Source: Alphaproteobacteria bacterium
Lineage (GTDB): Bacteria > Pseudomonadota > Alphaproteobacteria > JANQMY01
Reading direction: 5' to 3'
Assembly: GCA_028289425.1 (NCBI GenBank)
Contig: JANQPL010000009.1
Coordinates: 248,001 to 312,000, forward strand
Length of the DNA: 64,000 nt
Part shown: in pieces, positions 46,220 through 64,000 of the stretch
Position numbering within the stretch: position 1 is the stretch's first letter
Layout of the letters: the number at the start of each line of letters is the position of its first letter
The notes under the pieces: model-generated
What the model saw: only the letters and a program-made list of their open reading frames with translations
The model's database searches: none
Told to the model about the DNA's origin: nothing
Program-made: the position numbers and the translations under genes

Positions 46220-48301
46220 ATGAGTATTGAGCACGACATCGAATACGGCACCGTCCAACTCGGCCAAGAAGGCCAGGATCGATTAGCGCTTAAGACAGCG
46301 ATCCATGAATCCATGACCGATGGTCTGGCCTGGTCCGTTAAAAGTCAGCATCCGGAGGGCTATTGGGTCGGCAAGCTGCAAACCAATTCCTGCATGGAGG
46401 CGGAATGGGTGTTGGCGCTGCATTTCATGGGGCTGAACGATCACCTGTCGCGGCCGGGCCTGATCAAATCGATTTTGCGGGAACAGCGGGAAGACGGGTC
46501 CTGGGAGATCTATTCGAACGCCCCGGCCGGTGACATCAATACGACGGTCGAATGCTACGCGGCCCTGCGCTGTGCCGGCATGTCGAAAGACGATGAGGTG
46601 CTGAAGAAAGCGCGCGACTGGATCATGCAGCGCGGCGGCCTCAAGCATATTCGGGTCTTCACCCGCTATTGGCTTGCGCTGATCGGCGAATGGCCATGGA
46701 CGCATACGCCGAACATCCCACCGGAAGTGATCTACTTTCCCAAGTGGTTCCCGTTCAACATCTATAATTTCTCGTCTTGGGCGCGCGCGACGCTTATGCC
46801 GATCGCCGTACTGAGTGCGAAGCGGCCAACGCGCCCCCTACCCGATGGCTGCAGGCTGGATGAGCTGTTTCCCCAAGGGCGCAAGAATTTCGATTATTCG
46901 CTGCCCAAGGATGTGGACTTTTTCAGCTTAGAAAATTTCTTTCTGTGGGCGGATCGCTTCCTGCACGGTGCCCAAAGCATCGGACTGCCGCCATGGCGCC
47001 GTGGCGCTGTTGCGCGCGTGCTGGAATGGATCGTCAAGCACCAGGACGCTGACGGCGTATGGGGTGGCATCCAGCCCCCGTGGATCTACGGCCTCATGGC
47101 GCTGCATGAAGAAGGCTATCCCCATTCCCATCCGGTGATGGAAAAGGCGCTGGGCGCGTTGCAAGACCCACGCTGGGCTTACGAAGAAGACGGCGCCATT
47201 TACATTCAAGCCAGCACGTCCCCCGTTTGGGACACGGTGCTCACCCTGTTGTCGCTGCAAGACTGTGAAGCAGAAACAAAAGAAGAAAACGCGCCCGCCG
47301 TCGCGAAGGCCATAGATTGGCTGCTCAAAAACGAAGTGCGCACCGGCGGCGACTGGCAGCAGAAGGTCCCGGACGCGGAGCCCGGCGGCTGGGCCTTCGA
47401 ATACAAAAATGCATCGTACCCGGACGTTGACGACACGGCGGTGGCGCTGATGGTGCTGGCGCCCTACCGCACGGAAGAGACGTGGAAGAAAAAGGGACTG
47501 CCCGATGCACTGAAGCGTGCCGCCGAATGGACCATTGCCATGCAATGCAAAAACGGTGGCTGGGGTGCCTTCGACAGGGACAACGACAAAGCAATCTTGT
47601 GCAAGATACCCTTCTGCGACTTCGGTGAGGCGCTTGATCCGCCAAGTGTAGACGTCACGGGCCATGTGCTCGAAGGCTTGGCAGCGCTCGACTACCCAAG
47701 CGATCATCCGGCGATCCGGCGCGGCGTCCAGTTCATCAAAGACCAGCAAGAGCCCGACGGCAGCTGGTGGGGCCGCTGGGGCGTCAATTTCATTTACGGC
47801 ACGGCCGCAGCCCTCCCCGCTCTCAAGGCGGTCGGCGAAGACATGCGCGCGCCTTACATCGACCGCGCCGCGAAATGGCTGGTCGAACACCAGAATGATG
47901 ACGGTGGCTGGGGTGAGACCTGCGCGTCTTACATGGATCAAAGTCTCGCGGGCGTCGGCACAAGCACGGCGTCGCAAACCGCGTGGGCGTTGATGGGCTT
48001 GCTCGCGGTCGCCCGACCTGAGGACCGCGACGCCATCGAGCGGGGCGTGACGTTCCTGGCCGAAAACCAACAAGACGGCACATGGGACGAGAAGGAATAT
48101 ACGGGCACGGGATTCCCGGGCTATGGCCTGGGCTTACGGATCAATCTTAGTAAGAAGTCGCTGGAAACGGACCTGCAGCAAAGCACCGAACTGGGCCGCG
48201 GCTTTATGCTGAATTACAATCTTTACCGCCACTATTTCCCCGTGATGGCCATGGGGCGGACAGACAAATATCTGGATCGGCTAAGCAACCAACCGGCATA
48301 A
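46220..48301 (+). CDS. shc: Squalene-hopene cyclase
   Basis: 693 residues, slightly longer than the roughly 630-residue Alicyclobacillus enzyme. The catalytic D-x-D-D appears at 402-405 (YPDVDDTAVALMVL). QW repeats recur, for example REDGSWEIY, KHQDADGVWGG, MQCKNGGWGAF, QQEPDGSWWGRWG, HQNDDGGWGET and NQQDGTWDE. The enzyme cyclises squalene to hopene, the committed step of hopanoids in the inner membrane. The other hopanoid genes usually found beside it (squalene synthesis, hpn genes) are absent; it is surrounded by beta-oxidation and CoA genes. Confidence 0.96.
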   Translation: MSIEHDIEYGTVQLGQEGQDRLALKTAIHESMTDGLAWSVKSQHPEGYWVGKLQTNSCMEAEWVLALHFMGLNDHLSRPGLIKSILREQREDGSWEIYSNAPAGDINTTVECYAALRCAGMSKDDEVLKKARDWIMQRGGLKHIRVFTRYWLALIGEWPWTHTPNIPPEVIYFPKWFPFNIYNFSSWARATLMPIAVLSAKRPTRPLPDGCRLDELFPQGRKNFDYSLPKDVDFFSLENFFLWADRFLHGAQSIGLPPWRRGAVARVLEWIVKHQDADGVWGGIQPPWIYGLMALHEEGYPHSHPVMEKALGALQDPRWAYEEDGAIYIQASTSPVWDTVLTLLSLQDCEAETKEENAPAVAKAIDWLLKNEVRTGGDWQQKVPDAEPGGWAFEYKNASYPDVDDTAVALMVLAPYRTEETWKKKGLPDALKRAAEWTIAMQCKNGGWGAFDRDNDKAILCKIPFCDFGEALDPPSVDVTGHVLEGLAALDYPSDHPAIRRGVQFIKDQQEPDGSWWGRWGVNFIYGTAAALPALKAVGEDMRAPYIDRAAKWLVEHQNDDGGWGETCASYMDQSLAGVGTSTASQTAWALMGLLAVARPEDRDAIERGVTFLAENQQDGTWDEKEYTGTGFPGYGLGLRINLSKKSLETDLQQSTELGRGFMLNYNLYRHYFPVMAMGRTDKYLDRLSNQPA

Positions 48302-50022: not shown

Positions 50023-50829
50023 ATGGCCAGCACGACCGACACTTCCGCGCCCGGATGGTTCGCCCGAACCAAACGTGCCGCCGTGATCGGCTTTGGCACC
50101 TGGTTTGTGCGCAGCATCTCAAGTTTTCTCGCCAACCAGTCGCTGATCGGCGATCCGGAGTTTTTCGACAAGAGTGTGTTTGCGGACGAAACCGCGCTCT
50201 TGGAAAAGAACACGGCAGTCATTCGCAAGGAATTGGAAGAAGTGCTTAAAACGCGGGAGTACATTCCGGCGTTTCAGCAGGTTTCCCCCGATCAGGTGGA
50301 AATCGCCAAGGGCGACAACTGGAAGACCTTTATCCTCTATGGCTTTGGCTTCCAGGCCGAAAAAAATTGTCAGCGCTGCCCGGAAACGGTGAAGATTCTG
50401 GAGCAAATCCCGAACCTCAAAAACGCCTGGTTCTCCATCCTTAAGCCCGGCTATCACATTCCGCCCCACCGCGGCGTGACCAAGGGGCTGGTTCGCATTC
50501 ACCTGGGCCTCATCATTCCCGACGAAAAAGAAAAATGCCGGATTCGTGTGGGGTCGCAAATACGCCATTGGGAAGTAGGTCAGTGCATGGTGTTCGACGA
50601 CACCTTCGAGCACGAAGTTTGGAATGACACAGATCAGGAACGTACAGTTCTGTTTCTCGATGTCGTGCGCCCGTTGAAAACGCCTGGGCGTCTGCTCAAT
50701 AACTTTTTCCTATGGGCGATTAGAAAATCTGCCTACGTCCAAGACGGACGCAAGAACACCGCCGATTGGGAAGAAAAGTTTGAAGCAGCCGTCAGGCGCG
50801 CCGACGGTTATACGGATCCTGCGTCTTGA
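50023..50829 (+). CDS. Aspartyl/asparaginyl beta-hydroxylase-like dioxygenase (LpxO-like)
   Basis: 268 residues. HIPPHRGVTKGLVRIHLGLIIP supplies a His plus the 2-oxoglutarate-binding Arg region, and DDTFEHEVWNDTDQERTVLFLDVVRPL the second His and closing strand, as in the Asp_Arg_Hydrox family. Bacterial members include LpxO, which 2-hydroxylates lipid-A secondary acyl chains, and peptide hydroxylases; which one this is cannot be told. Next to the envelope-lipid genes an acyl-chain hydroxylation (for example of a sphingolipid or lipid A) is attractive, as inference. Its 3' end overlaps the convergent HAD gene by 22 bases. Confidence 0.82.
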   Translation: MASTTDTSAPGWFARTKRAAVIGFGTWFVRSISSFLANQSLIGDPEFFDKSVFADETALLEKNTAVIRKELEEVLKTREYIPAFQQVSPDQVEIAKGDNWKTFILYGFGFQAEKNCQRCPETVKILEQIPNLKNAWFSILKPGYHIPPHRGVTKGLVRIHLGLIIPDEKEKCRIRVGSQIRHWEVGQCMVFDDTFEHEVWNDTDQERTVLFLDVVRPLKTPGRLLNNFFLWAIRKSAYVQDGRKNTADWEEKFEAAVRRADGYTDPAS

Positions 50830-51512
50830 GAGGCTGCGGTCGTGCGCCAATCAAGGATCGGCAGACCACGCTCTTTCCCGTATTGATGGGTGCGGGTATT
50901 AGGGTTCACTAAAAAGGCTTCGTCCACATCTTCCAATAGGGGGCGGTCCGCCAAATCGTCCGAGTAGAACACTCTGTGTACTGATGGATAGCTTGCCGCA
51001 AGAAGTGCCCGAACCGCGTCTCGCTTCACGTCGCCCCGGCAATTTTCCCCGGTAAGCTTGCCGATAATCCGCCCCTCACCGTCCAGCACGATCTGCGTCG
51101 CAATCACATGATCAAATCCGAGGATTTCGGCCATGTGATCGGCATAAAGGTGATAGCTGGCGGTGGCGAGGATCAGCACATGCCCTGCCTGCTTATGCTT
51201 GCCGATTTGCGCCCGCGCGCCCGGATAGACGTGCCGCTCCATCCAATACTGGGCAAACGTCTTGGCAAAAGCGCTTGCCTCAACGTGTGGCACGCCACCG
51301 AGAAATGAATTGAGGAAAGCCTCCTTCAACTTCTTGCGATCCCGGTCGCCGGCGAGGTATCGCGCCGCAGCCATTAGCGGCGGCAGCGCTTTCAGCCATT
51401 TCAGCGGGTTTTGCCGGAGATAGGCGAGGTAAAAGGGCACATGCGTATCGCGGCTGGTGATGGTGGAATCCAAATCGAAAATGGCCACCGTCTGGCCGTT
51501 TTGAGAATCCAT
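50808..51512 (-). CDS. HAD-IB family phosphatase (SerB/CicA-like)
   Basis: 234 residues. The nucleophile motif is AIFDLDSTITSRDTHVPF (D-x-D-S-T), motif II is in HVLILATASYHLYADHMAEILG (S/T), and motif IV is RVFYSDDLADRPLLEDVDEAFLVNPN. The cap helices FYLAYLRQNPLKWLKALPPLMAAARYLAGD fit HAD-IB hydrolases that dephosphorylate small or lipid-like substrates. No substrate is assigned. Convergent with the dioxygenase gene; faces the glycosyltransferases across 446 bases. Confidence 0.87.
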   Translation of the reverse strand: MDSQNGQTVAIFDLDSTITSRDTHVPFYLAYLRQNPLKWLKALPPLMAAARYLAGDRDRKKLKEAFLNSFLGGVPHVEASAFAKTFAQYWMERHVYPGARAQIGKHKQAGHVLILATASYHLYADHMAEILGFDHVIATQIVLDGEGRIIGKLTGENCRGDVKRDAVRALLAASYPSVHRVFYSDDLADRPLLEDVDEAFLVNPNTRTHQYGKERGLPILDWRTTAASQDAGSV

Positions 51513-51958: not shown

Positions 51959-53164
51959 GTGAGAATTGCGTTATTCTCTGGTAACTATAACTACGTGCGT
52001 GATGGCGCGAACAGAGCACTCAATCGACTGGTCTCTTATTTGGAGAGACAGGGTGTCGAAGTCCTCGTTTTCTCACCGACCACCGCAACTCCTGCCTTTG
52101 CGCCGGCAGGAACACTCGTTTCCGTTCCGTCGGTTCCCGTGCCGCTCAGATCCGAATACCGGATCGCCATGGGCCTGTCGGAAAGCATCCGTAAGAAAGT
52201 CGAAGCCTTCAAGCCGGACCTGATCCATCTGTCCGCGCCCGATATTCTGGGCTACAGCGCATTACGCTATGCGTTGAGGCGTGGAATTCCGGCGATCGCG
52301 TCCTTTCACACGCGGTTTGACACCTATTTCTCCTACTACGGATTGCCCTGGCTCGATCGGGCATTCTCGAAATATCTAGGTCACTTCTATCGCCACTGCG
52401 AGCGCGTCTATGCGCCATCGGAATCGATGGCTCAAGAAATGCGCAGCCAGAAAATGGGACGAGATATTCGGATCTGGAGCCGCGGTGTCGACGGCACCCT
52501 GTTCAATCCGGCCCAGCGCAGCCTCGAATGGCGACGCGCCCACGGTATTCAAGACGACGACGTGGTTATTACGTTTGTTGGGCGCCTTGTCCTCGAAAAA
52601 GGCTTAGACGTGTTCGCAAACGTTAGCGAAACGTTAACACGCCAAGGCAAGGCCCATCGCGTTCTTGTTGTGGGAGAGGGTCCGGAGCGGGATAGTTTTG
52701 AAAGCAAGTTTCCATCCGCCGTCTTTACAGGGTTCTTGAGCGGCGAAGATCTTGGCCGGGCCTATGCCTCGTCAGATGTCTTCCTTAATCCAAGCACCAC
52801 CGAAACGTTCGGCAACGTGACCTTGGAGGCCATGGCCACAGGGTTGCCGGTCATTTGCGCGGACGCCACCGGCAGCCGCTCACTGGTGCAGCACGGTACC
52901 AATGGCTTTCTGTGCGAGCCGACGACGCTGCACGAATATGCATATTATGCGTCTCAGCTGATCGAAGATCCCGACCTACGCAGCAATATGTCCGATGCCA
53001 GCGTACGGCTGAGCAAAACCTACGACTGGGATCAGGTGATGCATCAGCTCATGGTGCAATATTCGGAAGTCATCGAAACGGGCGAGCGGACCACGCCGCG
53101 GAGGCGATTATCGCCGGCGTTTTTCAGCCTGTCCGATGCGGTGCGCCGCAGTCTTTCACTTTAA
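51959..53164 (+). CDS. GT4-family glycosyltransferase
   Basis: 401 residues from a GTG at 51959. The GT-B fold is shown by the N-terminal MRIALFSGNYNYVRDGANRALNRLVSYLERQGVEVLVFSP and by the C-terminal GRLVLEKGLDVFANV and NPSTTETFGNVTLEAMATGLPVICADATGSRSLV (E-x7-E nucleotide-sugar site: E-T-F-G-N-V-x-L-E). The start text GNYNYVRDGANR is shared with mannosyl- and sulfoquinovosyl-like lipid glycosyltransferases. Sugar and acceptor are unknown; transfer to a membrane lipid (perhaps a ceramide) is suggested by the context. Confidence 0.93.
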   Translation: MRIALFSGNYNYVRDGANRALNRLVSYLERQGVEVLVFSPTTATPAFAPAGTLVSVPSVPVPLRSEYRIAMGLSESIRKKVEAFKPDLIHLSAPDILGYSALRYALRRGIPAIASFHTRFDTYFSYYGLPWLDRAFSKYLGHFYRHCERVYAPSESMAQEMRSQKMGRDIRIWSRGVDGTLFNPAQRSLEWRRAHGIQDDDVVITFVGRLVLEKGLDVFANVSETLTRQGKAHRVLVVGEGPERDSFESKFPSAVFTGFLSGEDLGRAYASSDVFLNPSTTETFGNVTLEAMATGLPVICADATGSRSLVQHGTNGFLCEPTTLHEYAYYASQLIEDPDLRSNMSDASVRLSKTYDWDQVMHQLMVQYSEVIETGERTTPRRRLSPAFFSLSDAVRRSLSL

Positions 53165-53249
53165 TCCGTACCCGCAATCCTCTAAGTTCATGACGGTTTC
53201 GCGTCCTTGCCGGTCGCTTGCCGATGCCTTTTGAGGATCAATTGCGCTT

Positions 53250-54431
53250 ATGAAGATTGCCGATGTCGCCGAATTCTACAGCGAACAAGGCGGCGGCGTT
53301 CGCACCTACATCCATCAAAAATTTGAAGCGTGCCGAGAACATGGGCATGAACTTACCGTTGTCGCCCCCGGCGCATCGACCTATGTGGAACAACGGCCGG
53401 GTGGGCAAATTGCCTGGGTAAAGGCGCCACGTATTCCCGTCGATCACCGCTACCACATATTCGTCAGCGCACGGGAAGCTTTCGAAGCTCTGGATCATTT
53501 CGCGCCGGACATTGTCGAAGGATCTTCCACGTGGAAAGGCGGCTGGATTGCCGCCAAATGGCCAGGCCCTGCTGTCAAATCGCTCATTCTGCACCAAGAT
53601 CCTGTTGCAGTTTATCCGCACACGCTTCTGGAACACTGGATCAGCATACAGAATATTGACCGTGGGTTTGGCTGGTTCTGGCGCTATCTCAAATCGCTCG
53701 GCCGCAATTTCGACACGTCGATCGTCGCGGGCGACTGGCTGGCGGATCGATTTGCCGCGTTCGGCATGGCGCGCCCTCACGTGGTGCCCTTTGGTGTTAA
53801 CAAGGCCGATTTCTCACCCGACTTCGCATCGCCTAAACGACGTCAAGAAATGCTGTCCGCCTGCGGCATAGAAGATCCGGATGCAAAGTTGCTCGTGGCC
53901 GTCAGCCGCCATCACCCGGAGAAGCGATTGGGCCTTCTCCTCAAGGCATTCGATCAAGTTCGGCAATCGCGCACCGTGGGCCTCTACCTCATCGGCGACG
54001 GCCCGACGAGGCGGTGGGTCGAAAAGGCCGCCGCCAAGGTGGCCGGCGTCCACGTAGCGGGCCCGATTAAAGACCGGCCCTTATTGGCGCAAAGCATGGC
54101 CAGCGCCGATGCCATGTTGCATGGGGGCGCTGCCGAAACATTTGGCTTGGTGGTTGCCGAAGCATTGTGTGCAGGCCTGCCCTTGATCGTGCCGGATCGC
54201 GGGGGCGCTGCAGATCTTGCCGGAGAGGCGTATGCGGTTTCCTACAAAACCGGCGATTTGGAAGGGTGCCGAAGCGCAATTCACGAGATGCTCGATAGAG
54301 ATCTCCCTGGGATGCATCGTGCTGCGCGCGACGCCGCCGACCAAAAAGTCGTCACCATGGCCACCCATTTCGATCGCCTGTTCGATCATTACGGCAGCTT
54401 GTTAGACAACAAAGCGGGTGGGAGCGGCTAA
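53250..54431 (+). CDS. GT4-family glycosyltransferase
   Basis: 393 residues. The N-terminus reads MKIADVAEFYSEQGGGVRTYIHQKFEACREHGHELTVVAP, with the GGG-V-R-T-Y donor-binding loop. The C-terminal domain has VAVSRHHPEKRLGLLLKAFD, LIGDGPTRRWVEKAA and HGGAAETFGLVVAEALCAGLPLIVPDRGGAADLA, a clear E-x7-E motif. It is co-directional with the previous GT4, 85 bases apart, and both are probably on one transcript. Its stop overlaps the convergent GT2 stop by four bases. Donor and acceptor unknown. Confidence 0.93.
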   Translation: MKIADVAEFYSEQGGGVRTYIHQKFEACREHGHELTVVAPGASTYVEQRPGGQIAWVKAPRIPVDHRYHIFVSAREAFEALDHFAPDIVEGSSTWKGGWIAAKWPGPAVKSLILHQDPVAVYPHTLLEHWISIQNIDRGFGWFWRYLKSLGRNFDTSIVAGDWLADRFAAFGMARPHVVPFGVNKADFSPDFASPKRRQEMLSACGIEDPDAKLLVAVSRHHPEKRLGLLLKAFDQVRQSRTVGLYLIGDGPTRRWVEKAAAKVAGVHVAGPIKDRPLLAQSMASADAMLHGGAAETFGLVVAEALCAGLPLIVPDRGGAADLAGEAYAVSYKTGDLEGCRSAIHEMLDRDLPGMHRAARDAADQKVVTMATHFDRLFDHYGSLLDNKAGGSG

Positions 54432-55252
54432 GACTGTTCCCCGTCGTCCCAGGCCCGGTCACGCAGATTAAGCTCGTTCAATTGGCGTTCTTCGAACCGA
54501 TCTTTCAAATAGGAATAGAAGAACCAGTCCTTCATGGCGTAGGGCGTGAGGTGATAGAGCAATCGTTCGGAAAGCGTCCATCGCACATTCGACCGGTCGC
54601 CCCGACGGTCTGAGGGTGAACACCAAAGGCTGTAACTATATTTCGAGCGGCCGAATTTGAAGATGCGGTGCATCAGCTCATGATCCTTGATCACGTAAGG
54701 CCATAGTTCTTTGGAATATCCACCGGCAAGGCGCAGCACTTCGGTGCGAAAAATATGGGCATACCCGCCCGTGTGAGCCTGACCACGCAATACTTGCGCC
54801 ACGCAGAACGTCTTCAGGCGTTGCAGCTGGCCCCAAAGACTGTCGCCGTCGCCTTGGACACTTGCCGCCATGACCGCGACCACGGCCGGCGAGGAGCGTG
54901 CAAACAGCTCGCTTGCCGTTTGAAGATAATCCCGCGGGTAATAGGTATCGGCGTCGCAAATCGCCACAAACTCAGTCGTCACCTGTTTGATGCCGGTTTC
55001 CAATGCGTGCACTTGGCCCGGTTTGGCTTCGTCGACAAATACCGAGTTTATGCGTTCTCGGCCTTTCAACAGATCTTCGCATACTTGGCGGGACCGGTCC
55101 GTAGACCCATTGTTCACGAGGATGAGCGTGAAATTGCGGACCGTCTGTTTTTTGAGCGACTCGATCGTGCGCGGCAGAAACTTTTCTTCGTTGTAGTACG
55201 GGATCACCACGCTCCATTGCGCTTGATCGGATTTTTTTGACCCGGCCGGCAT
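54428..55252 (-). CDS. GT2-family glycosyltransferase
   Basis: 274 residues from the ATG at 55252 (MPAGSKKSDQAQWSVVIPYYNEEKFLP), with an AGGTG ribosome site. GT-A signature: VVIPYYNEEKFLPRTIESLKKQ, the D-x-D-like IAICDADTYYPRDYL, and VLRGQAHTGGYAHIFRTEVLRLAGGYS. It begins eight bases after the TupA-like gene ends, so the two form an operon. No transmembrane segments are evident; likely a cytoplasmic or peripheral enzyme acting on a lipid- or polysaccharide-linked acceptor. Confidence 0.92.
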   Translation of the reverse strand: MPAGSKKSDQAQWSVVIPYYNEEKFLPRTIESLKKQTVRNFTLILVNNGSTDRSRQVCEDLLKGRERINSVFVDEAKPGQVHALETGIKQVTTEFVAICDADTYYPRDYLQTASELFARSSPAVVAVMAASVQGDGDSLWGQLQRLKTFCVAQVLRGQAHTGGYAHIFRTEVLRLAGGYSKELWPYVIKDHELMHRIFKFGRSKYSYSLWCSPSDRRGDRSNVRWTLSERLLYHLTPYAMKDWFFYSYLKDRFEERQLNELNLRDRAWDDGEQS

Positions 55253-55260
55253 GGTTGCAC

Positions 55261-56199
55261 CTATGCGCAAGTCGATTGCGCGACGGGCGGGTCGAACACA
55301 ACGGTCGGGTCTTCGGTCATGCGGCCAATCACTTCATCCATATGCCGCGGTTCGAAGTGGATCACACAGTTGGTTGGATAGTTTGTCAGCTCCCCAACGA
55401 ATAGCTTTCCCTTCACTAAATACAGATCTACGCGCAGAAAGTAGAAATCCGCTGCCAGTTTCTGAGCAAGATCCAGCATCTCCCGGATTTTATCTTTATA
55501 CGGAAATTCCCGATTGGCCGGTCGATGGCGAAAGGTCAGGTCCAATCGGCGCCCGTCCAAATCGTAAATGTCTCGCAGATGAATACCATGACGCCCAAAA
55601 TCGATTTGAATGAATCGGGGTTCACCGTGAAAACAGAAAATCTTGATATCGTCGGGCGGTTCGCTTCCCTCACTGATAAAGGGCTCAACGATCACCTTTG
55701 GCACAAGGTTCTTGTAGTTGGGTTCCCGATTGACGTGAAAGAAGTTTGTCTGAAGCCAGCTTTTCATTCGATCGCAGTCGACCGGCGAGGGTTGATCGTC
55801 GCGAATGAATATGACGGCGCCACTTAAATGAGTCGGTTTGGCAACGCTGTTTGGCGGAAATTTGTATGCATCAATTTCACTGTCGGTGCGAAGGATTGCC
55901 AAGGTTTCGATCGTATTGCCGGCACCGGCTCGTTCGGCGACAAATTCCTTAACCAGTTCCTTGTCAGATATGCGTTCAAATATGGGGGCTCGGGCTTCAT
56001 CGGACAGTTTGAAACGCATCAGAAACTCGGGAAACCCCTTCGGGTTTCTCACATTCGCAAAGCGAAAATTATCCAGGAAATACCTATACTGAGAAATTGC
56101 ATAGTTTCCCCACGCGCTGTCTGGGACAAATCGCGCAATGAATCCCTCGATTCTGTTAAGGTATCTAATGACCGGATTTTTGCTGAGCTTTTCGCTCAC
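55261..56199 (-). CDS. TupA-like ATP-grasp protein
   Basis: 312 residues from GTG 56199, preceded by GGAGG; upstream ATGs at 56247 and 56238 lack a comparable ribosome site. The C-terminal two-thirds look like the TupA ATP-grasp family: SVAKPTHLSGAVIFIRDD, PKVIVEPFISEGSEPPDDIKIFCFHGEPRFIQIDFG, FYFLRVDLYLVKGKLFVGELTNYPTNCVIHFEP. Such proteins ligate an amino acid or similar compound to a polysaccharide or lipid. Together with the GT2 and GT4 genes this suggests decoration of a surface glycan or glycolipid. Substrate unknown. Confidence 0.8.
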   Translation of the reverse strand: MSEKLSKNPVIRYLNRIEGFIARFVPDSAWGNYAISQYRYFLDNFRFANVRNPKGFPEFLMRFKLSDEARAPIFERISDKELVKEFVAERAGAGNTIETLAILRTDSEIDAYKFPPNSVAKPTHLSGAVIFIRDDQPSPVDCDRMKSWLQTNFFHVNREPNYKNLVPKVIVEPFISEGSEPPDDIKIFCFHGEPRFIQIDFGRHGIHLRDIYDLDGRRLDLTFRHRPANREFPYKDKIREMLDLAQKLAADFYFLRVDLYLVKGKLFVGELTNYPTNCVIHFEPRHMDEVIGRMTEDPTVVFDPPVAQSTCA

Positions 56200-56266
56200 A
56201 TGGCCTCCAGCGCCTGACAATATGCAATCGTGCCCCATGTACATCAATCCGCATAGAACGTGAAGT

Positions 56267-57235
56267 ATGGCCGACCAATCGTCCCCGTTGGCGCGTTTGC
56301 GAGAATTCGCCGCGAATGACTATTTCAAGTCGCAACGGTTTAAGCGCGTGCTATTGGCCGCGCGTATCGCACTGTTGGCAGGGGTGTTTGCCTATTTGAT
56401 TTGGCGATTGTCGAGCATTGGTTGGGTCGCCGTTCTGCAAGCCCTTCCAACGGCCCCGCTTTTCTACCTCATCTTCGCGGTTCGTTATTGCGTCTTGCCG
56501 ACAACTGAAATGTTGATCTACCGGCGGCTGTGGAGCGTCCCCATGATGCCGTATTGGCCCGTTTTTTTTCGAAAGCGCGTGTTCAATTTCGGCGTGCTCG
56601 ATTATTCCGGCGAGGCTTATTTCCTCGCATGGGCCCGCGCGACGCTCAGGCTGCCCGACAAAACCGCATTTGCCGCCATCCGCGATTCCAATGTGCTCTC
56701 GGCAATCGCCTCAAACCTCATCACCGTCCTCTTTCTTCTCATCTTCGTATGGCAAGGAATGGCCGACACCTTGTCCACAAATACGCCCAATGCATGGATT
56801 TACATTTTGTCGGCCGGCTTCATTGCGGTTTTTTTGACAGCCATCATCGTTACGTTTCGCAGGCATTTGATCGGCGTTTCACACGACACCGCTTTGTGGC
56901 TGCTTGGCATGCATGGGGGGCGCATGCTGGTGATCTTGTTACTTTTGGGTGCCCAATGGGCAAGCGCCCTGCCCACGATCCCCTTATCCGTTTGGTGGCT
57001 GTTTCTGACGGCCAATCTGGTGCTTAACCGTCTTCCTTTCCTGCCCAATAAGGATCTGATGTTCTTGGGTTTGGGCGTCGGTTTGGCTGAATATGTGGAC
57101 GGGCCTGAGGCAGCCATCGCGGCGGTGTTTGTTGCGTCATCAGCCCTCACGCAGCTAACAAACCTTTTGGTTTTCGCGGGTACCACATTCGTCAATGGAT
57201 CTTCAAAATCACCGCGAGATCCCGAAAGTTCCTAA
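56267..57235 (+). CDS. Polytopic inner-membrane protein of unknown function
   Basis: 322 residues with about seven to eight hydrophobic segments (residues about 28-48, 58-78, 142-162, 172-192, 215-235, 240-260, 264-284, 287-307). YRRLWSVPMMPYWPVFFRKRVFNFGVLDYSGEAYFLAWAR and NRLPFLPNKDLMFLGLGVGLAEY are conserved-looking charged loops. The pattern is loosely like the LPG_synthase_TM (UPF0104) group but I cannot place it. It diverges from the TupA-like gene and reads toward LptF, so a part in moving or modifying a lipid is a reasonable guess. Confidence 0.65.
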   Translation: MADQSSPLARLREFAANDYFKSQRFKRVLLAARIALLAGVFAYLIWRLSSIGWVAVLQALPTAPLFYLIFAVRYCVLPTTEMLIYRRLWSVPMMPYWPVFFRKRVFNFGVLDYSGEAYFLAWARATLRLPDKTAFAAIRDSNVLSAIASNLITVLFLLIFVWQGMADTLSTNTPNAWIYILSAGFIAVFLTAIIVTFRRHLIGVSHDTALWLLGMHGGRMLVILLLLGAQWASALPTIPLSVWWLFLTANLVLNRLPFLPNKDLMFLGLGVGLAEYVDGPEAAIAAVFVASSALTQLTNLLVFAGTTFVNGSSKSPRDPESS

Positions 57236-57368
57236 ACCGCCATAATTTGTGTTTTCCAAACTTTAGAGGCCAGCGGTACCCATGGACTTCATAAATGCCC
57301 CCAGTAGAATGCCGCCTCATCGCGCCCCTTTTGGTGGTGTCTTGGCGGCTCCTGAGGTGATTTAGGAC

Positions 57369-58571
57369 ATGTTTGGGAAATTGGACCGGTACATTCTGAG
57401 GTCGATCCTGAACCCGTTGGCCATGGCCCTCTGTATCGCGGCGATGCTCTTAACCCTTGAACGGATGTTAAGGCTCTTCGATTTTGTGTTGGACAAGAAT
57501 GGGCCGGTTGACGTGGTGTGGCAAATGCTGGCTTATCTGCTGCCGCATTATCTGGGGCTGGCGCTGCCCCTTGGCCTATTCATCGGGATCTTGATGGCCT
57601 TTCGCGGGCTGTCGCTCTCCAGCGAGCTGGACGCCATCACCGCCAGTGGTGTCTCCATGCGGCGCCTTCTCATCCCGGTCTACGCGCTCACATTGTTGCT
57701 AATGATAATCGATTTCATTTTGGTCGCGTACCTGCAGCCCTATGCACAGTACCGCTATCGGGAACTTCGGTTCGAGGTCAGCAGCGGCGCTCTGGGCATA
57801 ACAGTTCCCGCAGGCGAGTTTGTTCAGGTGGCCGACGGCGTGACATTGTTTGTGGGATCCACCCAGGGCGAGAACAGCCGTTTGAACGATATCTTTCTTG
57901 AAAGACGGTCACCCAGTGGAGACCGCAGCGTGTTTACCGCACGCGAAGGATCACTTTATGCCGGCAACACGGAGGAATCGTTCACGCTTAGGCTGTTTGA
58001 TGGTCGGCAGATGCAAATCACAGGCGAGAACGATTTGCCCGGTGTTCTCACTTTCGACAAGCTGGATGTACCGCTGGAATTGCCCTCAGTGGGTGTCTTT
58101 CGAGAACGCGGTGGTGAAAAGAAAGAAGCGACCATTGGTGAGCTTTTGCAGGTGATCCGATCGGAAACGCCGGAGACCTTCGAAGAATACAACGCGTTCA
58201 GAGCGAGTTTTCACTGGCGGCTTATTCATCCGCTCACCTTTCTTGCCTTACCCATGTTGGCGGTGGCGATGGGGGTCGTCGACAAGCGGCGACCATCGGT
58301 ACTTCAGCCAGTCATCGGCATAGCGCTGGTCATCGTGTATCACGAGATTTTGGAGGAATGGGGCGAAGTGCAGGTGGCCACAGGCGCAATGTCACCTTGG
58401 GTAGCCATGTGGCCTATCTATTTCCTGTTTTTTGCGTTGGGCGCAGTCTTGTTCCGCGCGACGTCGGAGCAGCCAGGCGGACTTCATGCGGTTTCGCTTG
58501 AACAGCGGATTGCTCAACTCGGGCAAATTCCATTGTCCTTGATCGGGCGCTCCAAACATCAAACTCCATGA
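57369..58571 (+). CDS. lptF: LptF-like permease of the LptFG family
   Basis: 400 residues, the length of LptF/LptG. It begins MFGKLDRYILRSILNPLAMALCIAAMLLTLERMLRLFDFVL, followed by three more spans and a large periplasmic beta-jellyroll domain (about residues 130-260). The last spans come after PLTFLALPMLAVAMGVVDKRRPSVLQPV. It extracts lipid from the inner membrane with LptB2 in the LPS pathway. LptG follows 15 bases on. The lptD/surA-type neighbours of a canonical locus are missing, so a dedicated role in a different lipid is possible. Confidence 0.9.
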   Translation: MFGKLDRYILRSILNPLAMALCIAAMLLTLERMLRLFDFVLDKNGPVDVVWQMLAYLLPHYLGLALPLGLFIGILMAFRGLSLSSELDAITASGVSMRRLLIPVYALTLLLMIIDFILVAYLQPYAQYRYRELRFEVSSGALGITVPAGEFVQVADGVTLFVGSTQGENSRLNDIFLERRSPSGDRSVFTAREGSLYAGNTEESFTLRLFDGRQMQITGENDLPGVLTFDKLDVPLELPSVGVFRERGGEKKEATIGELLQVIRSETPETFEEYNAFRASFHWRLIHPLTFLALPMLAVAMGVVDKRRPSVLQPVIGIALVIVYHEILEEWGEVQVATGAMSPWVAMWPIYFLFFALGAVLFRATSEQPGGLHAVSLEQRIAQLGQIPLSLIGRSKHQTP

Positions 58572-58586
58572 GTCTGACGCGTACTG

Positions 58587-59696
58587 ATGTTTAACGGCTA
58601 CCCCGAAACTGTCCGCGCCACCACGATCACGCGCTATTTGGTCCGGCAGTTTCTGCTGCGCTTCCTGTTCGTCCTTATTCTTCTGGTGTCGATTCTGCAG
58701 GCACTCGATCTGCTGAACAAATCGGACGATATTTTGGACGTTGACGGGGCGGGTTGGAGTTCTATTGCCAACTACATCATGTTGCGGGCGCCGCAATTGG
58801 CCAGCCAGTTCACGCCATTTGCCGCCCTGTTGGCGACGCTCATTACGCTTGGAACGCTCAATCAAAACAGTGAGATTGTGGTCATGCGTGCGGCAGGCTT
58901 GTCGACCCATCGCATCTTGTTTCCGCTGGGGATGGCCTGCGCCATTATCTTTGTTTTTCACTTGTTGCTCCACGAAGCCTTCGTTGTGAAATCGAGCGCC
59001 CGGCTCGATTTTTGGGAGCGCAACGACTTTGCGGTCGATTTGGAATTGAAACCTGACTCCCAACAGGAAATCTGGCTGCAAGAGGACGAAACCGTCATCA
59101 ATGCCCGCTGGATCACACAAACGGTCGACAGCATCATTCTGGACAAAGTCATCGTGTATGAGAAAGACGGGAATGGACTTCTTCAAGGCACTGCCTCTGC
59201 CGAATTCGCCTCCTATCGAAACGGAAAATGGACTTTGTTTGACGTTTTCCGCTTCAACGCAAATGACCTGTCTACCAGCACCACAGAATCGGAGGCGTGG
59301 CAGGTTAATCTTCGTCCGGACAAGTTGGCAGCGCTGGCACTGAAACCAGAGTGGACCTATCTGGCCACCCTCATGCAAAACATACGGCAGTTCAGGCAGG
59401 CCGGCCTGTCGACGCGCGATCTCGATCTTGCGTGGTTTCAGCGGTTTTCCGGTCCGGCGGCAAGCTTGGTCATGCCACTGATGGGCGCGGTCGCGGGCTT
59501 TGGTGTGCACCGACATGGCGCATTGCTGCTGCGCATTATCATCGGCGCAGCACTTGGCTTCAGCTATTTCGTTGCCGAGAATTTTATGATCGCCATGGGA
59601 CAGTTCGGCGTGATGCCACCGGTGGTGTCCACTTTCGCGCCGCTGGTCTTCACGCTCCTATGCGGATTTTCAATCCTGTTCTTCACCGAGGAATAG
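58587..59696 (+). CDS. lptG: LptG-like permease of the LptFG family
   Basis: 369 residues. Its start, TITRYLVRQFLLRFLFVLILLVSILQALDLLNKSDDI, is the LptG form, then PQLASQFTPFAALLATLITLGTLNQNSEIVVMRAAGLSTHRILFPLG. The periplasmic domain is about residues 130-255 and the last three spans lie at 290-365. It forms a heterodimer with LptF. Distinct and adjacent orthologue-like pair; no third component gene (LptB, LptC or LptA) occurs in the window. Probably co-transcribed with lptF. Confidence 0.9.
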   Translation: MFNGYPETVRATTITRYLVRQFLLRFLFVLILLVSILQALDLLNKSDDILDVDGAGWSSIANYIMLRAPQLASQFTPFAALLATLITLGTLNQNSEIVVMRAAGLSTHRILFPLGMACAIIFVFHLLLHEAFVVKSSARLDFWERNDFAVDLELKPDSQQEIWLQEDETVINARWITQTVDSIILDKVIVYEKDGNGLLQGTASAEFASYRNGKWTLFDVFRFNANDLSTSTTESEAWQVNLRPDKLAALALKPEWTYLATLMQNIRQFRQAGLSTRDLDLAWFQRFSGPAASLVMPLMGAVAGFGVHRHGALLLRIIIGAALGFSYFVAENFMIAMGQFGVMPPVVSTFAPLVFTLLCGFSILFFTEE

Positions 59697-59710
59697 GTCC
59701 GCGGTGCAGG

Positions 59711-60226
59711 TTAATTCAAAATATCCCGCGCGCGGGCAAGCCGTATAACCGTGTCCGCCCCGTCCTGGGGAACTTCGAAGGCGGCCTCTTCCAGCTTCGG
59801 TTTACGCAATCCATAACGGGGATTGTTGGAAAGGCCGAACGCCTCTTTCGGAATGCCGAAGAAGTTTTTGTCGAATTTCCAGTTGTCGTTGCGGTCATGA
59901 TAGATACCGACCGCATAAGTACCGGGACGTTCAATCGGAATGCAGAATCTGGTTTGGCCTTCCGAAGCCGGCATACGTATGCGGATTAGTGCTCGGCTGC
60001 CCCTCAGAAAATCTTCAGGCTTCTCATCATGCAGATCGGCCACAATGGTGCCCGTGCCCTTGCGAATGTTGTCAACGACCACCCGTATGGAAAGCTGTTC
60101 GTCTTTGCACCCATTACCGTCGGTGTATTCCAGGGTCGTCACTTCAGCGAGCGTAATCTGGGCGGACGTTGCAATACCGAACGCACAAAGAAACGCGACG
60201 ATCGGTCGGGGCAGAAAACGATACAT
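59711..60226 (-). CDS. DUF2141-domain secreted protein
   Basis: 171 residues from the ATG at 60226 (AGGAAAGAAGGATCA upstream). N-terminal signal peptide MYRFLPRPIVAFLCAFGIATSAQITLAE. The mature part reads LSIRVVVDNIRKGTGTIVADLHDEKPEDFLRG and RFCIPIERPGTYAVGIYHDRNDNWKFDKNFFGIPKEAFGLSNNPRYG, the DUF2141 pattern (D-x-N-x-N-x-K-x-D-x-N-x-x-G-x-P-x-E, a Ca-loop-like segment). The likely location is the periplasm. DUF2141 proteins occur in sphingolipid-producing proteobacteria, but the function is not established. Convergent with lptG. Confidence 0.87.
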   Translation of the reverse strand: MYRFLPRPIVAFLCAFGIATSAQITLAEVTTLEYTDGNGCKDEQLSIRVVVDNIRKGTGTIVADLHDEKPEDFLRGSRALIRIRMPASEGQTRFCIPIERPGTYAVGIYHDRNDNWKFDKNFFGIPKEAFGLSNNPRYGLRKPKLEEAAFEVPQDGADTVIRLARARDILN

Positions 60227-61050
60227 TGATCCTTCTTTCCTAAAGCCAGTTGAACAACAAACAAAGGGTTGTTGAGAGGGGCGGTGCAACGGCAGAAAAC
60301 CTTGGCAGCATTGCCCCAGATGTGCACTCATTCCTACTTCAGAGGGTATGAATAGGCGCTGAATACCGCCCTCCCAGACGATATTCAACTTAATTGTGAG
60401 TGAAGATTAACAGCCGTTTTCCAGCAAAAATAGGCTGTTTTCGCCCTAATTCGACTTTTGTTTGGCCTCAGCACCATCTGATCCGGTGTACATCGTCGAA
60501 TATTACAATTTGACAACTTTTTGTGACGCCTGAGGAACTAGAGCATTAAGGTTAGATCTGATAGCTCTGACTGGTTTTGTGGGGCCCTGTTGGGTCCGGC
60601 GGCCAGCTTTCTCCGCTCGACTGGGATTGAGAAGACGTGGTGGAGAGGTCATTCCGTCGCCGGATGGGTACCAAACTAATAACCTGAAGTTGCACAACAA
60701 GAACAAGCAACTATTGGGACGAAATACGATGTGGGGCACTTGCAACGGGCCGTAATTTGGCTTCTGCGCAAGAATCGATAATGTTATAAGCGGGTTGAAA
60801 AAATTGGACATGTCTCGACCAGGCTGGGTGTGTGGAGCAATTGTCTGAAATTTGACATCAGCAGATCGGGTGATCCTCGACGCCCGGTGCGCATGCGAAG
60901 AATTCACTGACCAAGATTGGGGGATGGGGATAGAGCGACTAACGGTTTAACCGTGCACTGTCTAATTTCTTCCAAACACTGTGTTGCCAGAAAGCCCAGC
61001 AGAATTGAGTGCGAGTAATGGCGTAAGCCGATTAGGGCAGGCTGATTTAT
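60227..61050. other. 824-base gap without a convincing gene
   Basis: This gap separates the DUF2141 gene from the acyl-AMP ligase. It has AT-rich stretches (60370-60430, 60500-60520). I see no RNA gene, intact insertion sequence or known motif; a leftward 134-codon frame at 60503-60907 has no recognisable protein features and is not called. It may carry the divergent promoters of its flanking genes. Confidence 0.5.
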
Positions 61051-62808
61051 ATGAGACAAAAAACACAGACCGTAAATCCTGATTTGGCATTCAATCCAGC
61101 CCATTTCGCCTCTTTGGTGGAAGGCCTGGAATATGCCGCGCGTGGACAGACCGGTTTCAACTTTTACTCCGTGCGTGGAGAACTAAATCACGCCCTTCCC
61201 TACTCGGAATTGTCAGAACGCGCAAAACACATCGGCGCTCGCTTGAGCGGATTGGGCCTTCCACGCCATTCGCGGATTGCCGTTTTGGCGGAAACAATTC
61301 CGGAATTTTCAATCTTCTTCTTCGCGTGTCAATTCGCCGGCCTGCTGCCCGTACCGGTGCCGCTTCCGGTGAGCTTGGGCGGTAAGGCATCCTATATTAA
61401 TCGGCTGAAAGGGTTGGTTGCGGCGGCAAACGTTTCTGCGGTCGTGTCGTCGGAGGATCTTGTTGAGTTGGTCCGGGAAGCAGTGACCGACCTGCCCGGC
61501 TGCATTGTGGGCTCCCACAATGATTTCGCCTCCCTTGAGGCAACCGCCGATTTGTCGCCCTTGCAGCCCGATGAACCCGCATACATTCAGTATTCATCCG
61601 GCAGCACGAGCAAGCCAAAGGGAATTGTAATTTCGCAGCGGGCGATCACGCACAATGCCCGGGGCATCCTGAATAGCGGGTTGGAAGCAAAATCCGGCGA
61701 TCGCGCATTCTCGTGGCTGCCGCTCTATCACGACATGGGATTGGTAGGCTTTTGCCTTACGCCTTTGCTGTCCCAGATCACGACCGACTATATGGCGACG
61801 GCGGACTTTGCTCGGCGTCCCCTGAATTGGCTTCGCTTGATCTCGGAGAACAAAGGCACCATTGCCTTCAGCCCCTCGTTCGGTTTCGACCTTTGCACGC
61901 GGCGTGCCGCTAATCGAGACACGGAAGAATTCGATCTTTCCTCCTGGCGCATAGCCGGCATTGGCGGAGATATGATCCGCGCGGATGTGCTCGACCGGTT
62001 TGCCGACCGCTTCGGGGCGAACGGCTTCAAACGCAAAGCCTTCCTGCCGAGTTATGGTCTTGCGGAATCCACTCTTGCCGTCAGCTTTGCGCGCGTCGAC
62101 GAAACCTTCAAGACCGATCGAGTCGATCTGAAAGAATTCTCACGCACTGGCCATGCAACGCCCGCCAAGCAAATCGACGACGCGCTCAATACTCGCCAGT
62201 TTGTATTCTGCGGAACCAACTTGCCGGGTCACGAAATCAGCGTTCGAGATGAAGACGGCGCGCCGATCGAAGACCGGGTAGTTGGCCACGTATTCATTCG
62301 TGGTCCGAGTTTGACGGACGGTTTCTTCGACAATCCCGCCATGACTCAAAGAACTATTTCGGAAGACGGTTGGCTCGATACCGGCGATCTCGGCTACATG
62401 GTGGACGGCAATCTTGTGGTAACCGGCCGCAGCAAGGATCTCATCATTATCAATGGCCGGAACATATGGCCCCAAGATATTGAGTGGGCGGTCGAACGCC
62501 TTCCCGGCTTGCGCGGCGGCGATGCGGCGGCGTTTTCCGTTGAAGATCAGAGTACGGAAAATGTTGTTGTGGTCGTTCAATGCCGACTTCGCGGCACTGA
62601 AGAGCGTGCGGCCCTGATGCATGACGTCGGGGCGACCGTGCGCGCGGTTGCCGGCGTCGATTGCCTGACCGTGTTGGCCAAACCGGGAAGTTTGCCGATG
62701 ACCTCGTCGGGCAAACTGTCGAGAGCGGCCTCGAAGAAGCAATATCTCGACGGGGAGTATGCCGTGGTAGATCCGGTGCGCGAACCGATTCGAGTTGCTG
62801 TGGGCTAA
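61051..62808 (+). CDS. Fatty acyl-AMP ligase/acyl-ACP synthetase (FAAL, ANL superfamily)
   Basis: 585 residues, longer than CoA ligases, as in FadD32-like FAALs. YIQYSSGSTSKPKGIVIS is the A3 loop. The FAAL-type text ISENKGTIAFSPSFGFDLCTRRAANRDTEEFDLSSWRIAGIGGDMIRADVLDRF is characteristic, together with LPSYGLAESTLAVSF, GDLGYMVDGNLVVTGRSKDLIIINGRNIWPQDIE and the C-terminal TSSGKLSRAASKKQYLDG (A10 Lys). It activates a fatty acid as adenylate and loads it onto an acyl carrier protein. The order ligase - epimerase (CerR-like) - ACP matches known ceramide loci, where such a ligase supplies the acyl-ACP for serine palmitoyltransferase. Confidence 0.9.
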   Translation: MRQKTQTVNPDLAFNPAHFASLVEGLEYAARGQTGFNFYSVRGELNHALPYSELSERAKHIGARLSGLGLPRHSRIAVLAETIPEFSIFFFACQFAGLLPVPVPLPVSLGGKASYINRLKGLVAAANVSAVVSSEDLVELVREAVTDLPGCIVGSHNDFASLEATADLSPLQPDEPAYIQYSSGSTSKPKGIVISQRAITHNARGILNSGLEAKSGDRAFSWLPLYHDMGLVGFCLTPLLSQITTDYMATADFARRPLNWLRLISENKGTIAFSPSFGFDLCTRRAANRDTEEFDLSSWRIAGIGGDMIRADVLDRFADRFGANGFKRKAFLPSYGLAESTLAVSFARVDETFKTDRVDLKEFSRTGHATPAKQIDDALNTRQFVFCGTNLPGHEISVRDEDGAPIEDRVVGHVFIRGPSLTDGFFDNPAMTQRTISEDGWLDTGDLGYMVDGNLVVTGRSKDLIIINGRNIWPQDIEWAVERLPGLRGGDAAAFSVEDQSTENVVVVVQCRLRGTEERAALMHDVGATVRAVAGVDCLTVLAKPGSLPMTSSGKLSRAASKKQYLDGEYAVVDPVREPIRVAVG

Positions 62809-62884
62809 CACCACTTTCTAACTTGAGCGCTTCTCGCAACGACGGGCGGCACACGGTCCCAAAGACGCGACCTATCGGCTAATC

Positions 62885-63823
62885 ATGACCCGAACCATTG
62901 CGCTCACCGGCGCCACAGGATTCATAGGCCAACACGTCCAATCACATGCTGCCGACCTAGGTTGGCAGATTCGCTCACTTACCCGCCGAGACCCCGCAGC
63001 CAAGTCGGTCGCGAATGTGGAGTGGATCCGCGGGTCCCTAGACGACGCGCAGACGCTCAAAACCCTATGCCAGGGCGCCGACGCTGTGGTGCACTGCGCG
63101 GGCGCGATCAAGGCCACCACGCCAAACGGTTTTTTCAAAACCAATGTTGGCGGCACCGAAACCTTGGCGCACGCCGCCGCCCAGATGGGATGCCGGAAGA
63201 TGGTCTATTTGTCCTCCCTGGCGGCCCGAGAGCCCTCGCTGTCCGACTACGCCGCCAGCAAGCGAAAAAGCGAAGAGGTGCTTTCCGAAAACGCAAACAT
63301 GACCCGATGGACGATCTTGCGGCCACCAGCGGTTTACGGTCCCGGCGACCGTGAAACCCTCAAGGTCTTTCGATTCATGAAGCATGGTATTGCCCTGGTG
63401 CCCGGTTCGATACGGAACCGCACGTCTTTCATTCATCTGCATGACCTCAGCCGCGCGGTGGTCGCCTGCGTCGACGCAGAAGCAGTCAACCAAATGACAA
63501 TCGAACTGCGGGACGATCAAGCCGGTGGTTATGATTGGCGGCAAATTTGCGAAGCGGCAACAGCGGCCTTCGGGCGCGCGGTATCATGCCTGACGCTGCC
63601 GCAGTTCGCGGTTTGGCCCGTCGCCCTATTGAACGAGACCCTGTCGCATCTTTCCGGCCGCCCCGCCATACTGACGCGGGGGAAGCTTCGTGAGATGTTT
63701 CATGAAGATTGGTCCGTTGGCGAAAATGTGCTCTGTGCCCATACGGATTGGCGCCCCGAATATGATCTGCCTACAGGCTTTGCCCAAACGGTCAATTGGT
63801 ATCAAGAGGCCGGTTGGCTTTGA
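62885..63823 (+). CDS. cerR: NAD-dependent epimerase/dehydratase, CerR-like ceramide reductase candidate
   Basis: 312 residues, extended SDR. The cofactor loop is IALTGATGFIGQHVQSHAADLGW at the N-terminus; the SDR catalytic pair is likely in SDYAASKRKSEEVLSE (Y-x-x-S-K). AAVYGPGDRETLKVFRFMKHGIALVPG is an extended-SDR substrate segment. CerR-type enzymes reduce the 3-oxo group of oxidised ceramide in bacterial sphingolipid synthesis; the assignment rests on position between the FAAL and an ACP, as in Caulobacter-type loci, not on sequence identity. Confidence 0.65.
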   Translation: MTRTIALTGATGFIGQHVQSHAADLGWQIRSLTRRDPAAKSVANVEWIRGSLDDAQTLKTLCQGADAVVHCAGAIKATTPNGFFKTNVGGTETLAHAAAQMGCRKMVYLSSLAAREPSLSDYAASKRKSEEVLSENANMTRWTILRPPAVYGPGDRETLKVFRFMKHGIALVPGSIRNRTSFIHLHDLSRAVVACVDAEAVNQMTIELRDDQAGGYDWRQICEAATAAFGRAVSCLTLPQFAVWPVALLNETLSHLSGRPAILTRGKLREMFHEDWSVGENVLCAHTDWRPEYDLPTGFAQTVNWYQEAGWL

Positions 63824-63920
63824 GCACGCACGTCAATTTGCATGGTATACTGGCGCAAATTTGTTAGAACAATTCAAGCAGTGGACGGCCCCGCGTCCCG
63901 CTGCCAAATTTCGGGGTGAT

Positions 63921-64000
63921 ATGAACTCTCAGAAAACGGACGATCCCGTCTTTTCAAAGGTGTGCGAGCTGCTCGCCCCTTTCAACAAAGACAATGTCGA
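63921..64000 (+). CDS. Acyl carrier protein (5' part, cut by window edge)
   Basis: An ATG at 63921 opens MNSQKTDDPVFSKVCELLAPFNKDNV, then the window ends. The start resembles small acyl carrier proteins in ceramide loci (F-x-K-V-C-x-L-x-x-P-F-N-K). The serine that carries phosphopantetheine lies beyond the edge. The gene is 97 bases after the CerR-like stop, in the same direction as the ligase. Confidence rests on the N-terminal text plus gene order. Confidence 0.6.
   Translation, partial: MNSQKTDDPVFSKVCELLAPFNKDNV

Follow-up and report, generated by a model that had tools for sequence, protein, structure and literature searches.

The window analysed here is a 64,000-nucleotide stretch (contig C19:248001-312000) of an alphaproteobacterial genome that is 5.42 Mb in size and 99.75% complete. 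Glycosyltransferase genes, lipid synthesis genes and a pair of LptF-LptG permease genes lie at its right-hand end, in a locus that spans roughly window position 51959 to C19:316482, that is, the final segment of the window and the next 4.5 kb. The original prediction, made from the letters of the window, proposed that the glycosyltransferases and the LptFG pair may serve sphingolipids, and every gene that it named was found in place. The analysis described below indicates that this is probably a locus for glycosphingolipid synthesis, flipping and Lpt-type export to the outer membrane.

Gene content of the locus

Two glycosyltransferase genes of the GT4 family open the locus on the forward strand, GT4a (51959..53164; Pfam GT4 domains), a candidate ceramide glycosyltransferase, and GT4b (53250..54431; identified with Pfam). 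On the reverse strand lie a GT2 glycosyltransferase gene (54428..55270; PF00535, E 1.7e-29) and the gene for a TupA-type ATP-grasp ligase (55261..56247; PF14305, 131 bits, E 4.9e-38); roles for both were assigned from position, the ligase possibly modifying the head group. The next three genes are on the forward strand and encode TM322 (56267..57235), a stand-alone polytopic protein predicted to have the MprF lipid-flippase fold, the permease LptF2 (57369..58571; PF03739, 227 bits) and its partner permease LptG2 (58587..59696; PF03739, 216 bits). A reverse-strand gene (59711..60226; PF09912) encodes a DUF2141 protein with a signal-peptide-like N-terminus and a predicted periplasmic beta-sandwich. 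Its start is more likely at 60226, where an ATG precedes the signal-peptide-like stretch, than at 60388.

The sphingolipid synthesis genes follow on the forward strand: a fatty-acyl-AMP ligase of the AasR type (61051..62808; NF006624, 767 bits, above the cut-off), an NAD-epimerase-family ceramide reductase of the CerR type (62885..63823; PF01370) and the start of a dedicated acyl carrier protein (ACP) of the AcpR type (63921..64000, continuing to window-equivalent 64178; PF00550, E 3.9e-10). A serine palmitoyltransferase (SPT) gene had been expected within about 1-3 kb to the right. It begins 182 bp beyond the window end, after the ligase, epimerase and ACP genes (C19:312182-313384, forward strand; NF047599, 610 bits, cut-off 500), and its best matches in the PDB are solved serine palmitoyltransferase structures (E 1e-127). 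Also beyond the window are genes for a Tam41-like cytidylyltransferase (C19:313388-314362, reverse strand; PF09139, 28.7 bits, cut-off 24), a CerS-like protein of 389 amino acids (C19:314494-315663, forward strand), the position of which matches that of bacterial ceramide synthase, and a MobA/CofC-like nucleoside triphosphate transferase (C19:315676-316482, forward strand; family search). The CerS-like protein had no family-model match in a profile search, and it is 40-52% identical to the products of genes at the CC_1154 place in other SPT loci, a comparison that held no Caulobacter sequence. A CerR-type epimerase between ligase and ACP was also present in most of the SPT loci compared. A relative of the ceramide kinase type (CerK; G000:C3:625358; L131:5266-6207) is unlinked to the locus and adjoins a short-chain dehydrogenase gene; it is 32% identical to the CerK of an SPT locus (E 3e-51).

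The window LptFG pair belongs to a separate clade

Four LptF/G proteins are encoded in the genome: two make up the window pair, and the other two form a pair on contig C5. The C5 pair adjoins lptD, surA, pdxA and rsmA and is canonical; the absence of lptD, surA and pdxA beside the window pair, to which the original prediction had drawn attention, was borne out, and these genes neighbour the C5 pair. LptF2 and LptG2 nevertheless score above the NCBIfam equivalog cut-offs for the lipopolysaccharide (LPS) exporter permeases LptF (TIGR04407, 244 bits, cut-off 230) and LptG (TIGR04408, 270 bits, cut-off 240). At the thresholds used, one LptA, one LptD and one LptC (E<=1e-3) were detected in the genome, so that no separate bridge is apparent for the second LptFG pair.

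A tree of concatenated LptF and LptG (87 rows, E. coli outgroup) was built with a careful IQ-TREE run, in addition to quick trees. The canonical clade (34 rows, support 100/99), designated type 1, comprised the pairs of every SPT-negative control (15 genomes) and, from 19 genomes with both LPS genes and SPT, the unlinked copies, including the C5 pair. The window pair fell into a second clade (type 2, LptFG2; 49 rows, support 100/99) and was not grouped with the pairs of LPS-positive, SPT-negative genomes. The existence of a second, canonical pair and the placement of the window pair in a separate clade with 100% bootstrap agree with the earlier suggestion of an LptFG paralogue dedicated to another lipid. 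All 30 tree pairs from LPS-less genomes were in the LptFG2 clade, as were the second pairs of 16 genomes with both LPS genes and SPT (the window genome included) and three Kordiimonadales-like pairs from SPT loci. Genomes with a Caulobacter-like gene order were also represented in this clade, in a tree without a named Caulobacter sequence. In a coordinate test, 29/49 LptFG2 pairs lay within 20 kb of SPT, compared with 0/34 canonical pairs.

A third clade (100/100), with pairs from three SPT-positive, LPS-positive genomes (G201, L067; G282, L040; G381, L094), grouped with E. coli LptFG. These pairs lie beside SPT in two of the three genomes, and this gammaproteobacterial-type LptFG appears to have been recruited to sphingolipid loci independently. 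The view that LptFG2 might itself simply be nearer to gammaproteobacterial LptFG was rejected, since the tree with the E. coli outgroup makes types 1 and 2 sisters.

LptFG type tracks SPT and LPS genes across genomes

The survey sample consisted of 389 alphaproteobacterial genomes, each at least 95% complete. An SPT orthologue was present in 57/389, and LpxC was present in 20 and absent from 37 of these 57. LpxB agreed with LpxC except in G001 and G028 (LpxC without LpxB) and G062 (weak LpxB match). Two LptFG pairs were found in 19/20 genomes with both SPT and LpxC. The 37 SPT-positive genomes without LpxC had one pair (30 genomes), none (six) or two (one, G273); within the single-pair set, the pair of G327 is cut by a contig end and G200 has an orphan extra protein. 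Among 50 SPT-negative relatives, a clear second pair was found in one (G023), and this pair is remote. In G023, which has no SPT orthologue, the neighbourhood of the remote LptF/G-like pair (L030) includes one SPT-like gene (33%) and one GT4-like gene.

Genome by genome, LPS-positive, SPT-positive genomes carry type 1 plus type 2 or 3 (G078 carries type 1 only), LPS-less genomes carry type 2 only and the controls carry type 1 only; all 45 of the 45 genomes with a type 2 pair were concordant. LptFG2 thus tracks SPT, LptFG1 tracks LpxC, and LptFG2 is usually the sole LptFG pair kept by LPS-less species. In the LPS-less SPT-positive genomes, a match for LptA/LptD-N was present in 32/37 and for LptC in 23/37.

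LptG2 lacks a basic pair that in enterobacteria contacts lipid A and the inner core

A Shigella structure shows LptG K40 in contact with the lipid A 4'-phosphate and K41 in contact with the inner core (PMC6744409). Both of these positions (E. coli numbering throughout) are basic in 29/34 canonical sequences, usually as R-R in canonical alphaproteobacterial LptG, and in 0/49 LptG2 sequences; in the window genome LptG1 has Q-R and LptG2 has D-D. Of the transport-critical arginines (PMC6744409), LptF R292 is retained in 47/49 and LptG R301 in 46/49 LptFG2 pairs. This residue pattern would suit an exporter that still works but prefers another head group.

TM322 and the glycosyltransferase block

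TM322 had no Pfam or NCBIfam match, and none of nine TM322-family sequences matched a flippase model in a Pfam profile search. An AlphaFold2 model built from nine relatives (pLDDT 81) aligned with the N-terminal flippase domain of MprF with a VIA-align Z of 19.9 over 279 residues and with other MprFs at Z 18-19, the next non-MprF chain reaching Z 8.1. Foldseek with this model gave no match at E<=0.001, and MprF emerged only in the second alignment. On its predicted fold, TM322 is a candidate (glyco)sphingolipid flippase.

TM322 relatives were found in 9/389 genomes, of which 8/9 are SPT-positive, and in 8/72,556 plasmids, all from Sphingomonas, Novosphingobium or Sphingobium. In the ninth carrier (G365, L128) the distance between the TM322 relative and a CerS-like gene is about 1 kb, and a single 10-kb stretch holds relatives of TM322, GT4a and GT4b together with an SPT-like gene. 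In four LPS-less SPT-positive genomes, the gene immediately upstream of the TM322 relative is related to GT4a (57-59% identity). The GT4b relative of G365 (50% identity) adjoins the GT4a relative, and those of the sphingomonad cassette (35-41% identity) adjoin DUF2141 and the TM322 relative. Sphingomonads are classic glycosphingolipid makers (PMC6445935). Four of their plasmids (L135, L136, L137 and L139) keep the order glycosyltransferase, TM322, DUF2141, GT4b relative (here 37-41% identity), with a polysaccharide deacetylase near the cassette where annotated, and two LPS-less genomes (L127 and L129) keep the order TM322, DUF2141, GT4b. This recurrent clustering of GT4a, GT4b and TM322 relatives, with one another or with sphingolipid genes, supports the proposal that the glycosyltransferases serve sphingolipids. 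The TupA-type gene adjoins the TM322 gene in a genome of the same genus (G001) as well.

In Kordiimonadales loci and in G040 and G282, the DUF2141 gene is next to LptFG2 or SPT, and in sphingomonads its neighbour is TM322; its product is a conserved partner of the module. The beta-sandwich model of this protein gave only middling matches (pilotins and starch-binding-like domains, best Z 8.6).

Some cassettes showed further features. A single orphan LptF-like permease, with no LptG in sight, stands by the glycosyltransferase-TM322-DUF2141 cassette at L129:6171-7313 and L137:10827-11990. In plasmid p01 of Sphingomonas sp. FARSPH (L137:8310-10795), an IS256-family transposase gene within the cassette separates two glycosyltransferase fragments, each with a match to GT4b.

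Flanking genes

Upstream of the locus, window 46220-48301 encodes an apparent squalene-hopene cyclase, called by eye, in a stretch that also carries genes for acyl-CoA dehydrogenase and enoyl-CoA hydratase. The LpxO-like hydroxylase gene (50023-50829), which had been suggested to modify acyl chains of the same lipid, starts 17 bp after that hydratase gene, and the SPT loci compared showed no relative of the hydroxylase near SPT. The suggestion was unsupported, and the hydroxylase was rejected as a part of the system. In L033 (from G396, a genome that shows no LptFG), two SPT genes stand in tandem, with 59 and 63% identity to the SPT of the window genome, and a relative of the HAD phosphatase gene at window 50808-51512 (41% identity) is close to the SPT cluster. 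Past the nucleotidyltransferase gene are a gene for a LysR-type regulator and a panB-like gene, both named from sequence. Since Caulobacter glycosphingolipid genes are PhoB-controlled, a PhoB-box search was made; the window has a single site, with 3 mismatches and not within the locus, which is fewer than expected by chance, and PhoB control was rejected.

Proposed pathway and alternative explanations

In the pathway that we infer, the substrate, the step order, the use of a common bridge and the nature of the sugars are all putative. In the cytoplasm, the acyl-AMP ligase would load a fatty acid onto the dedicated ACP, SPT would condense the fatty acid with serine, and the CerS-like enzyme would attach the second acyl chain. 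GT4a and GT4b, perhaps with GT2 and the TupA-type ligase, would add sugars or head-group extensions, and TM322 would flip the lipid over the inner membrane, where the periplasmic CerR-type enzyme would reduce the ceramide. LptF2-LptG2, presumably powered by a shared LptB, would then extract the lipid and load it onto the one LptC-LptA-LptD bridge. The Caulobacter enzymes Spt and CerS are cytoplasmic and CerR is periplasmic, and for that organism no flippase or transporter had been identified (PMC11087976); the proposed step order fits this topology. Extended to the class, the model holds that sphingolipid-making Alphaproteobacteria have two Lpt systems, that a family of MprF-fold flippases feeds LptF2G2, which loads glycosphingolipid onto the LptC-LptA-LptD bridge used for LPS in the same cell, that species that lost LPS kept only LptF2G2, and that a third, gammaproteobacterial-type LptFG was recruited independently. 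We put this wider model forward tentatively, with somewhat less than even confidence.

Several observations weigh against these proposals. G078 has SPT and LPS and only canonical LptFG. The genus-level group g68 (G069, G225, G285, G338 and G387) and G396 have SPT and no LptFG, and sphingolipid export therefore need not use LptFG. The g68 genomes, which are SPT-positive, gave no match for LpxC, LpxB, LptF/G, LptC or LptA/LptD-N, and, if these bacteria are diderm, they must export outer-leaflet lipids in another way. The tree has at least 5 changes of LPS state and offers only 4 independent pairs for comparison (sign test, P = 0.125); there is accordingly less independent evidence than the raw counts imply. 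Double mutation of LptG K40/K41 had no effect on E. coli growth (PMC5548808). No evidence of conservation beyond the genus was found for GT2 and TupA, and genome association cannot show the substrate.

The Tam41-like (CC_1161-type) and CofC-like genes in the locus, together with the unlinked CerK relative, also suggest that the exported lipid may instead be a phosphosphingolipid, of the ceramide phosphoglycerate (CPG2) type suggested for Caulobacter, in which case the glycosyltransferase block would make something unrelated, for example a capsule or glycoglycerolipid. Tam41-like and CofC-like genes flank SPT and CerS here as in loci of Caulobacter order, LptFG2 is also kept in loci (L026) that have CerK and CDP-alcohol transferase-like genes and no glycosyltransferase block, and the glycolipid synthase model nearest to GT4a and GT4b is that of N-acetylglucosaminyl-PG synthase, at scores below the cut-off. 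However, the locus showed no counterparts of the later-pathway genes CC_1159, CC_1158 and CC_1152 (no genome-wide search was made). GT4a, GT4b and TM322 also cluster with one another; in G365 they are joined by CerS and in sphingomonads by DUF2141. We consider this explanation rather unlikely; both a phosphosphingolipid and a glycosphingolipid may be made.

The scores of both permeases above the NCBIfam LptF/LptG cut-offs would suit a redundant or conditional second LPS exporter that lies near SPT by chance. This is very improbable, given that LPS-less genomes keep LptFG2 only, that SPT-negative LPS-positive genomes carry only the canonical type in the tree, and that LptG2 has lost the basic pair at 40/41. 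It is also quite improbable that LptFG2 exports some other envelope lipid co-inherited with SPT, such as a hopanoid or a glycoglycerolipid: the apparent squalene-hopene cyclase gene lies upstream and glycoglycerolipids are also made by GT4 enzymes, but linkage of LptFG2 to SPT recurs in more than half of the pairs, and a non-systematic inspection of the compared SPT loci revealed no hopanoid gene. Export of a glycosphingolipid remains our preferred explanation.

Relation to known systems and significance

The route of bacterial sphingolipids to the outer membrane is stated to be unknown (PMC11324152, PMC11087976). The sphingolipid region of Caulobacter contains LptC2, LptF2, LptG2 and a potential flippase, with orthologues in six other species, and sphingolipid transport by LptC2F2G2 was proposed in 2024 and not investigated (PMC11324152). 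The core idea is thus already published for Caulobacter. The present locus resembles Caulobacter crescentus CC_1168-CC_1152 (PMC11324152) in its ligase, CerR, ACP, SPT, CerS-like, Tam41-like and CofC-like genes and in a second LptFG pair linked to SPT, comparable to LptF2G2 (CC_1156/CC_1155). It differs in the GT4-GT4-GT2-TupA block and the MprF-fold protein, in the location of CerK outside the locus and in the single LptC of the genome (E<=1e-3), no companion LptC2 having been found. By predicted chemistry, two GT4 enzymes acting on ceramide recall Caulobacter Sgt1/Sgt2 and the sphingomonad glycosphingolipids, although Sgt1 and Sgt2 are encoded by phosphate-starvation genes outside the spt region (PMC6445935). 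LptFG2 shares family, pair architecture and transport-critical arginines with canonical LptB2FGC (PMC6744409), whereas it forms a separate clade, is linked to SPT and not to lptD/surA, and lacks the basic LptG 40/41 pair. TM322 resembles MprF and HexF in having the flippase-domain fold without the lysyl-transferase domain and in its ties to glycolipid glycosyltransferases and, in sphingomonads, to a polysaccharide deacetylase; it differs in that it has no detectable Pfam similarity, stands in a sphingolipid gene context and is alphaproteobacterial. The hexSDF operon of Clostridioides difficile combines a glycosyltransferase, a deacetylase and an MprF-like flippase for a glycolipid (PMC10128005), and this arrangement therefore has precedent. 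New here are the class-wide evidence from LPS loss, the separate clade with its residue signature, the third recruitment, the MprF-fold flippase family and the glycosyl version of the locus; a literature search that covered few subscription papers found no paper with a class-wide LptFG comparison.

The NCBI equivalog label "LPS exporter permease" is probably wrong for the LptF2G2 clade. At genome scale, the findings predict LptFG type 1 for LPS and type 2 for sphingolipid, and the comparison yields the LptG 40/41 signature and a concrete flippase candidate that profile libraries missed. They also suggest a route to LPS loss, in which a parallel Lpt exporter for another outer-leaflet lipid would already have been present.

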